Of a stretch of 64,000 nt of DNA, positions 49,184 to 50,574 are shown piece after piece. Source of the DNA: Chelatococcus reniformis. Lineage in GTDB: Bacteria; Pseudomonadota; Alphaproteobacteria; Rhizobiales; Beijerinckiaceae. Made by a program: the position numbers and the translations under genes. Position 1 is the first letter of the stretch; the number at the start of each line of letters is the position of its first letter. The notes under the pieces were generated by a model, which was not told where the DNA came from, did no database searches, and was given only the letters and a program-made list of their open reading frames with translations. The stretch covers positions 473,186 to 537,185 of the forward strand of contig NZ_BMGG01000005.1 of assembly GCF_014640075.1 (NCBI RefSeq), in the 5' to 3' direction.

Positions 49184-50074
49184 CTAGGTGTATTCGACGT
49201 CGGCCCGCAGTCGCTCGAGCGCCGCCGCGATCCTTCGCTCCGTGACGCAGGAGGGCTCGACCAGGGGTAGGCGCGGCTTGGGGCTGAAGCGCCCCCTGAT
49301 CAGGAAGAGGGCGTATTTCATCGCGGCGGGATCGGCGTCGCCGTCGATCGCCTGGCTGAGGAGCGACAGCCGCTGCTGAAGGTCGACCGCCGTCGCGCCA
49401 TCGCCGAGCAGACACGCCGAGAACAGGCTTGCGCACAGCTGCGGCGTGACGTTCGCCACCACGGAGAACAGCCCGGATCCGCCGGCCAGCAGAAAGGGAA
49501 CGGCGGCGACTTCGTCCGTCGTGAGCACGCACAGCCCATCCCCGCGCAGACGGAGAGCCGAGAGGGCGCGCGGCAGCCCCGGCGCCCCTTCGATGTAGCC
49601 GGTGATGCCGGAGACAGCGCGCAGATGCTCCGCGGTCTGCGGCGCGAGATCGACCCGCGTGCGATCCGGGTCGTTGTGCACGATCAAGGGGAGATCGACG
49701 GCGGCGGCGACCGCCTCGAAATGACGGAGCAATCCACGCTGCGAGGGCCGGATGTAGGGAGGCGTCGTGACGACGAGAGCGTCGGCGCCGGCCGTGCGCG
49801 CCAGCTGCCCTTGGGCGATCGCCCGATCGGTCGCGGGGGATGCGATGCCGACGAGCACCGGTACGCGGCCGGCGGCGCACTCCGCCGCCACCGCGACGAG
49901 ACGGACATACTCGTGTGGCTCCAGCGTCGCATATTCGCCCTCGGCCGTCGCGACGGCCAGGCCGTTCGTGCCGTGCCCGATCTGCCAGTCCGCCAGATCG
50001 GCGAAGGCGCGTTCGTCCACGCCGTCGACGCCGAACGGGGTCGCCAGGGCGGCGATGGATCCCGAGAGCGTCAT
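49184..50074 (-). CDS. DapA-superfamily protein lacking the Schiff-base lysine
   Basis: A 296-residue TIM-barrel protein that aligns end to end with dihydrodipicolinate synthase (IAALATPFGVDG at the start, TPPYIRPSQRGLLRHFEAVA). Yet the catalytic set is degraded. In E. coli DapA the Lys of GIKEATGNL forms the Schiff base; here the site reads GYIEGAPGL, with Ile. The Tyr of LYNVPSRTG is His (IVHNDPDRT). The Thr pair of GTTGES reads TAEGEY. The rest of the fold is intact, with high coding quality. It may be a non-catalytic or metal-type aldolase-fold protein. It is translationally coupled to the small membrane-protein gene upstream. Confidence 0.85.
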   Translation of the reverse strand: MTLSGSIAALATPFGVDGVDERAFADLADWQIGHGTNGLAVATAEGEYATLEPHEYVRLVAVAAECAAGRVPVLVGIASPATDRAIAQGQLARTAGADALVVTTPPYIRPSQRGLLRHFEAVAAAVDLPLIVHNDPDRTRVDLAPQTAEHLRAVSGITGYIEGAPGLPRALSALRLRGDGLCVLTTDEVAAVPFLLAGGSGLFSVVANVTPQLCASLFSACLLGDGATAVDLQQRLSLLSQAIDGDADPAAMKYALFLIRGRFSPKPRLPLVEPSCVTERRIAAALERLRADVEYT

Positions 50075-50076
50075 GT

Positions 50077-50379
50077 TCACAGGAAACGATGCGCGCCGTA
50101 GCCGAGAAAGAAGAGCCACACGCCCTCGTCGAAGGAGGTGTAGTGCGGCGCGCCGATGCGTTCCTCCCGCCAGGTGCCGATGAACATGCAGAGTGCCGAG
50201 CTCGCCAACGCCATGACGGCGAGCGGGGCGACGAAGCCGAGCCCTGCGGCAGCCTGCAAACCGGCCGCCAGCAGAAAGAAGGTCAGCTTGAATGCTACCC
50301 GTTTGACGACGTCAAACGAGCGTCCACCGTCGGCTTTCGTCAAGGGGTCCTCGCTCGGCACCTGCCCTGGCCGCGCCAT
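50077..50379 (-). CDS. Small polytopic membrane protein coupled to the DapA-like gene
   Basis: A protein of about 100 residues with two or three hydrophobic helices (VAFKLTFFLLAAGLQAAAGL, FVAPLAVMALASSALCMFIG and WLFFLGYGA). Its TGA lies 2 bases before the ATG of the DapA-superfamily gene (TGAACATG), a coupling arrangement. No family is recognised. The Arg/Glu segment WREERIGAPHYTSFDEG between helices 2 and 3 would face the cytosol or periplasm. The start at 50379 is the longest ATG frame. The true start could be downstream. Confidence 0.6.
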   Translation of the reverse strand: MARPGQVPSEDPLTKADGGRSFDVVKRVAFKLTFFLLAAGLQAAAGLGFVAPLAVMALASSALCMFIGTWREERIGAPHYTSFDEGVWLFFLGYGAHRFL

Positions 50380-50574
50380 GGCGCGCCGGTTCGCTGCCCC
50401 GAGGTATCGACGAAGCCATTAAGGTTCGAGCGGCGAACGCCGGCCGCAGCATGAAGATTCCGTAAAGGCCGTGCGGGGGTGGCGTCGCGCCGCGGCTGCC
50501 GCGTCCGATGTGGGGGGAAGCCGAACGTGCCCGGCGGCGGCGCTCCACGGTGCGGCGCCGCCGCCGGTGCTCGG

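Follow-up and report, generated by a model that had tools for sequence, protein, structure and literature searches.

In the window, by which we mean the whole analysed stretch of 64,000 nucleotides from Chelatococcus reniformis, a gene for a DapA-like protein, P0001, directly follows a gene for a small membrane protein, P0002 (Table 1). The P0001 frame starts with ATG and runs over 296 codons with zero internal stops, and its GC content at the three codon positions (0.75/0.52/0.86) is coding-like, so the clean frame described in an earlier reading made from the sequence only was borne out. The same reading had placed the stop of a membrane-protein gene of about 100 residues 2 bases from the P0001 start, and we indeed found the P0002 TGA at 50079-50077, two bases before the ATG. 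An aldehyde dehydrogenase gene lies upstream of the pair, and the TonB receptor gene downstream of P0001 falls just under the cut-offs of two haem-receptor families; both are separate from the system described here. Upstream of P0002, at 50436-50461, we noticed the sequence GGAAT-N17-CGTT, which we take to be one base off the EcfG stress-promoter consensus. An EcfG promoter was rejected as a candidate, since 33 upstream regions gave 4 relaxed matches vs 1.8 expected and 0 strict matches vs 0.57 expected.

Table 1. Features of the P0002-P0001 locus (window positions; P0001 residues in E. coli DHDPS numbering)
Feature	Position	Strand	Basis
P0002, small membrane protein, 100 aa, about two TM segments by eye	50077..50379	(-)	
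P0001, Lys-less DapA-like protein, 296 aa	49184..50074	(-)	complete predicted (beta/alpha)8 barrel
Ala44-Glu45 replacing Thr44-Thr45	49940..49945	(-)	
Tyr107, retained (28/28 Lys-less rows)	49754..49756	(-)	alignment
His133 (codon CAC) replacing catalytic Tyr133	49676..49678	(-)	
Arg138, retained (27/28 Lys-less rows)	49661..49663	(-)	alignment
Ile161 (codon ATC) at the Schiff-base Lys position	49592..49594	(-)	

P0001 matched PF00701, the DHDPS/NAL superfamily, with 178 bits against a cut-off of 22.1, and it stayed below the cut-off of the NCBIfam dapA equivalog (TIGR00674, 195.3 bits vs 206.15). The AlphaFold2 model, built from 62 aligned rows, showed a complete (beta/alpha)8 barrel with a pLDDT of 94.8. 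It was closest to the solved DapA/DHDPS structures of A. tumefaciens (4i7u; TM-score 0.93, 42% identity) and S. meliloti (MosA, 2vc6), the two spanning TM 0.92-0.93 and 37-42% identity; the DapA fold assigned from the sequence was in agreement with this prediction. We compared the P0001 residues with solved DHDPS and with 70 Lys-keeping rows from outside the linked group described below; these rows were picked for having the lysine, so that their K161 (70/70) holds by construction. P0001 carries Thr43 where the canonical rows have Gly (70/70), Ala44 and Glu45 where they have Thr and Thr (each 70/70), Tyr48 instead of Ser (68/70), His133 instead of Tyr (70/70), and Ile161 in the place of the Schiff-base lysine of DHDPS. 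Accordingly, the earlier proposal that Ile replaces Lys161, His replaces Tyr133 and Ala-Glu replaces Thr44-Thr45 was confirmed throughout. The Ile161 codon is two base changes away from a Lys codon. The protein has only two lysines, 253 and 266, of which Lys253 pairs with Lys in all aligned rows, and both lie off strand 157-162, where the Schiff-base lysine belongs; an alternative alignment with a lysine at that site is therefore excluded. Like DapA/DHDPS, P0001 has the full barrel with C-terminal helices and retains Tyr107, Arg138 and Glu47; unlike it, P0001 has Lys161, Tyr133, Thr44/45 and the lysine-allosteric positions (presumably 48, 53, 56 and 84) replaced and falls under the dapA cut-off.

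DHDPS is a textbook Schiff-base enzyme and an antibiotic target. Its active site is described as T44, Y106, Y133, R138, K161, G186 and I203 together with Y107 of the adjacent subunit (PMC3369909), and Tyr106/107 are reported to interlock the tight dimer and to contribute to the opposing active site (PMC11201819). The statement that every characterised member of the family needs the lysine holds in a softened form: according to PMC3369909, mutation of K161 leaves DHDPS activity 'largely impaired', and a paper is cited there that raises in its title the question of how essential this residue is.

The window genome encodes a separate full DapA (319 bits) with intact Lys, Tyr and Thr motifs and a third PF00701 protein of 67 bits. 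Among the matches listed, the best non-self match to P0001 had 43% identity (60 relatives; 397 genomes of the order), and in the rows that were listed or read the top matches lay at about 40-44% identity, whether or not they keep the lysine. No orthologue was seen among the 60 relatives in the listed rows and the top 20 loci, which were read; a single-sequence scan of genome contigs with P0001 confirmed no relative, and in a plasmid tblastn search every match was below 60% identity. A profile search of 385 genomes of the class was dominated by canonical DapA, with the lysine kept in 29 of the 29 non-self loci fetched. A near-identical homologue with the lysine intact, as expected after a recent single mutation, was thus not found in these searches, and by tree path the nearest relatives of P0001 are Lys-less.

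P0001 is not a lone oddity and belongs to a wider group of Lys-less DapA relatives in soil bacteria. We collected 28 further members (27 of full length), all but two from the order of the window genome; judging by the named Rhizobium, Kaistia and Methylobacterium rows, which interleave in the trees, the order of the linked group should be Hyphomicrobiales. Among loci L001-L048, which were read, only two besides P0001 were Lys-less, both from one genus (G350, G422). A motif scan of an 84,980-species collection, using a DHDPS motif with a hydrophobic codon at position 161 and fixed spacing, gave 12 loci, all of them encoding Lys-less DHDPS-like proteins: four from Methylobacterium, one each from Kaistia hirudinis, Rhizobium terricola, R. 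tibeticum, Ciceribacter and Agrobacterium vitis, and three from MAGs of Xanthobacteraceae, Phenylobacterium and Clostridia. The 12 are a lower bound, as the pattern is biased to hydrophobic replacements at 161; the cases with Arg, Ser, Cys or Ala at 161 came from the small-protein search described below, so that their adjacency to the small protein is by selection. A separate DapA with Lys and Tyr was present in 11 of the 12 motif-scan genomes. In the Clostridia MAG (locus L088, 3507 bp) the Lys-less gene immediately follows asd, and a Lys-keeping DapA is found on another contig (L190). The TIGR00674 cut-off was passed by 11 of the 12 Lys-less proteins (genomes of L087-L098) and hence does not test for the lysine. 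We found no description of a Lys-less DHDPS family in the open-access literature searched.

The relationships of these proteins were examined in two trees. The first (55 rows), made without three of the Lys-keeping linked rows and superseded by the second, contained the canonical rows as one starred clade (97/99), placed the Lys-less clade of family code f36, which we guess to be Bradyrhizobium-type, beside canonical DapA (82/91), and did not unite the linked rows; its best topology needs three changes of Lys status, of which the starred branches force only one. The partial L097 was kept out of both trees. The second, from which the catalytic columns and the long-branched L088 and L098 were also left out, separated 31 Lys-keeping unlinked rows from 26 Lys-less and 6 Lys-keeping linked rows, with a support that is not firm (91/29). 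P0001 grouped there with L110 and with rows from Methylobacterium and of Kaistia type in a Lys-less clade of eight rows (98/98), nested in a 20-row linked set (98/93), and the starred branches forced three changes of Lys status. The end branch of P0001 is long in both trees (1.41-1.45), the branches of L096 and L110 are long as well, and the tool flagged the meeting of P0001 and L110, which leaves their exact placement unsure. Losses are the likelier direction of the changes: the canonical and the Lys-keeping linked rows suggest an ancestor with the lysine, and in that case at least three losses of Lys and Tyr133 took place.

Residues were counted in 28 Lys-less rows, namely P0001 and 27 relatives, with the partial L097 left out. 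Tyr133 was present in none of them, Thr44 in 12 and Gly43 in 9, and position 161 was occupied by eight residue types (V, R, L, A, C, I, M, S). On the other side, Y107, E47, K253 and N208 were each kept in all 28 rows, R138 in 27, N80 in 25 and Y106 in 19. With Y107 kept and T44, Y133 and K161 lost or loosened, the residue donated in trans survives, whereas most of the cis chemistry is gone. Among 85 positions conserved at 95% or more in the 70 Lys-keeping rows, 25 were lost and 60 kept in the Lys-less rows, and the positions on our own list of active-site or lysine-allosteric residues made up 10 of the 25 lost vs 5 of the 60 retained (Fisher p 0.001). Positions 48, 53, 56 and 84, which we take to be lysine-allosteric, were largely lost in the Lys-less rows, and 48, 56 and 84 were already partly lost in the six Lys-keeping linked rows.

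Within the eight rows of the window clade, position 133 reads H, G, H, Q, E, H, Q, H and position 161 reads I, A, V, V, V, V, L, V; this variation from species to species fits a loss of constraint and not one shared new chemistry. Just two invariant polar residues are specific to this clade, R260 and R109, the latter a K-to-R swap. In the f36/Xanthobacteraceae clade, His133, Asp134 and Arg138 are present in 12 of 12 rows and Thr44 in 11 of 12, and the relatives carry R, C, S or M at position 161. The dN/dS ratio was between 0.08 and 0.56, and so below 1, in all 34 Lys-less pairs tested, in comparison to 0.03-0.44 in 17 Lys-keeping pairs; the Lys-less relatives are under purifying selection, and P0001, being without a close relative, lies outside this test.

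The Lys-less group, together with six relatives that keep Lys and Tyr, is tied to an uncharacterised protein of 70-100 aa and often to the kdp operon, which encodes a potassium pump. The small protein, here called the VGxD protein, follows the pattern F-x-[VI]-G-x-[DNS]-x2-G-x-W...G-G-x-F...A-x2-[YF]-A, is soluble-looking, and is a better-conserved neighbour than the membrane protein. It was adjacent on the same strand in 12 of the 14 loci that had been found without using it, the two exceptions being the Phenylobacterium MAG and the contig of the Clostridia MAG. Nine of the neighbouring small proteins, compared with Pfam, stayed below every cut-off (best E 0.059), and a search of the PDB with the model of the small protein (pLDDT 81.8) gave no hit with an E of 0.001 or less. 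We found the VGxD protein in 11 of 12 genomes searched, in a single copy each except for two in G883, in 47 of 397 genomes of the order, and in 5 of the 385 genomes of the class search, three of the five being from the window's order. When VGxD loci were fetched from 30 of the 47 genomes, a DHDPS-like gene lay within about 1.5 kb in 18; 2 of these genes keep Lys, and the other 16 are Lys-less and have Arg, Ser, Cys, Ala, Leu or Val at 161. The remaining 12 genomes were without such a gene within that distance. Four more Lys-keeping linked paralogues were found at L033, L166, L169 and L170; at L112-L120, L122 and L131 the VGxD protein has no DapA-like neighbour within about 1.5 kb. Among genomes with two strong DapA matches, 21 of 29 had the VGxD protein vs 26 of 368 others (Fisher p 7e-16), and in the 8 genomes of the order with a second strong DapA and no VGxD protein all second copies keep the lysine.

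In the relatives, the cluster of DapA-like and VGxD genes often abuts kdpA, whose identity was given by NCBIfam at three loci. A kdpA gene was located within 12 kb of the VGxD gene in 16 of 36 small-protein genomes vs about 0.2 expected, a count that comes from 37 hand-chosen genomes, some of them picked after kdp had been seen nearby. The kdp-linked genomes cover seven family codes and one MAG, and include Lys-keeping linked paralogues (G110, G125, G274). In G010 and G344 a VGxD gene is found some 9-10 kb away from the kdpA start. In G274 the Lys-keeping linked paralogue (C3:247556-248407, L166) contains one in-frame TAG and lies beside a second kdpA copy; it is possibly a recent pseudogene. 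One f36 cluster between kdp and upp (G284, L147:6495-9849) encodes a '..EGEWHCALSR..' protein, a 2-TM protein, a VGxD protein, the Lys-less DapA, a '..RFAVTLDEPDR..FFRRSSSKLC..' protein, a 1-TM protein and a second VGxD protein, and extra small proteins of this kind were seen by eye in L091 and L087/L089. The window genome is arranged differently. Its single VGxD match (C5:354874-355050, L136:6869-7129) lies 167 kb from P0001 and adjoins an RhtX/FptX-type siderophore transporter gene, with no kdp or DapA-like gene beside it, and its kdpA is on a different contig from P0001. P0001 itself has no adjacent VGxD protein, the feature after which the linked group is named, and with the soluble partner and kdp so placed the operon logic of the relatives is not directly transferable to it.

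The membrane protein recurs in part of the group. In six f36 clusters a 2-TM protein of roughly 92 aa adjoins the Lys-less gene. A profile of these six proteins, with P0002 left out, matched P0002 at E 0.021 over 6152 ORF segments, which is a weak score, and matched a protein at L052, not near DapA, at E 0.00087; the next unrelated match was at E 6.6. P0002 is likely to be homologous to the f36 proteins, as judged from this comparison. When P0002 was included in the profile, 9 of 25 genomes had a match at E 0.01 and 16 had none; strong matches beside a Lys-less gene were the six f36 proteins and P0002 (the latter by construction), the one in G120 was unlinked, and the rest were weak. Other loci have different single-TM small proteins nearby, for instance directly upstream in R. 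tibeticum. The proposed membrane partner thus recurs, as likely homologues in six f36 genomes, which makes the link probably no accident of the window genome, but it does not always accompany the Lys-less gene.

We consider it fairly probable that P0001 is a DHDPS-fold pseudoenzyme whose barrel is under selection and which serves as a non-catalytic regulatory or ligand-binding subunit; it would belong to the operon-linked DapA paralogue group. The sequence-only reading had offered a pseudo-enzyme or a new chemistry, and the former is supported by the free variation of the barrel-centre residues in the clade of P0001. P0001 would be unable to form the pyruvate Schiff base, and its pocket would be freed from catalytic constraint, while the barrel and the tight-dimer contact are presumably maintained by selection. 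Provided that the ancestor of the paralogue group had both Lys161 and Tyr133, members of the group would have lost them on three or more branches; such repeated loss with the fold retained suggests that the selected function already was non-catalytic or became so, and a regulatory or ligand-binding subunit is its most likely form. P0002, translated just before P0001, probably holds it at or near the membrane. Against this reading stand the weakly supported split of the linked group from canonical DapA, the retained active-site residue Arg138, which could mean that a ligand or reaction persists, and the chance that Tyr107 is kept for packing alone. We infer that P0001 may pair with DapA, may have a role connected with potassium and may act at the membrane.

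Alternatively, P0001 could form tight dimers with the canonical DapA, lend it Tyr107 and alter its activity or lysine feedback. The invariance of Tyr107 beside lost or loosened cis residues would fit such dimers, which could be lysine-insensitive given the replaced allosteric positions, as would the co-occurrence of canonical DapA in the window genome and in nearly all motif-scan genomes and the gene behind asd in the Clostridia MAG; there is also a precedent in the trypanosomatid deoxyhypusine synthase (PMC3663545). However, the other interface residue, Tyr106, is Pro in P0001 and often replaced elsewhere, the cis residue Arg138 is retained too, and the gene neighbourhoods in the order point to kdp and not to lysine genes, so we regard this arrangement as rather unlikely. 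Arg138, kept in nearly all Lys-less rows, would together with the conserved His133, Asp134 and Thr44 of the f36/Xanthobacteraceae clade speak for a new Lys-independent enzyme that carries out another reaction with a different residue set. A new chemistry would be possible for that clade, with its invariant His133-Asp134, although position 161 varies there as well; for the window clade, where positions 44, 133 and 161 vary freely and the barrel centre has gained no invariant polar residue, a shared chemistry appears disfavoured, and for P0001 we hold a new enzyme to be improbable. That P0001 is a decaying dapA duplicate on its way to being lost would agree with its long end branch, the absence of any match exceeding 44% identity in the rows that were listed or read and of an orthologue among the 60 relatives in the listed rows and the top 20 loci, but it is very hard to reconcile with an intact frame with coding-like third positions, a high-confidence predicted fold with intact scaffold residues and the purifying selection on the Lys-less relatives, and we give it hardly any weight. 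A broader picture, in which we place little confidence, extends the subunit reading: a Hyphomicrobiales DapA paralogue might have been recruited into a potassium-homeostasis module (kdp, VGxD and 2-TM proteins), there to act as a sensor or regulatory subunit, its barrel dying at least three times in parallel, and might insert its Tyr107 into normal DapA and de-sensitise it, coupling cell-wall and lysine flux to K+ status at the membrane.

The closest known protein is DapA itself; by function, the closest are inactive homologues of the PA0223 type and dead-paralogue subunits such as that of trypanosomatid deoxyhypusine synthase. Like PA0223 of P. aeruginosa, a homologue of DapA for which no DapA activity could be detected in vitro, P0001 is a DHDPS-fold paralogue alongside a genuine DapA; unlike P0001, PA0223 is by its paper's account not Lys-less, its active site being described there as highly conserved, with Thr44, Arg138 and Lys109 given as the positions that vary (PMC3281039). 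The trypanosomatid enzyme is likewise accompanied by a dead paralogue retained next to the catalytic copy, which it activates through hetero-oligomer formation; it is, however, another enzyme of another pathway, and the hetero-oligomer shown there would be hypothetical here (PMC3663545). As a practical warning, automatic annotation by TIGR00674 would name 11 of the 12 Lys-less motif-scan proteins active dapA. The selected Lys-less paralogues, with their apparently parallel losses and their recurrent genomic company, make the role of the DHDPS fold in the absence of catalysis directly testable.
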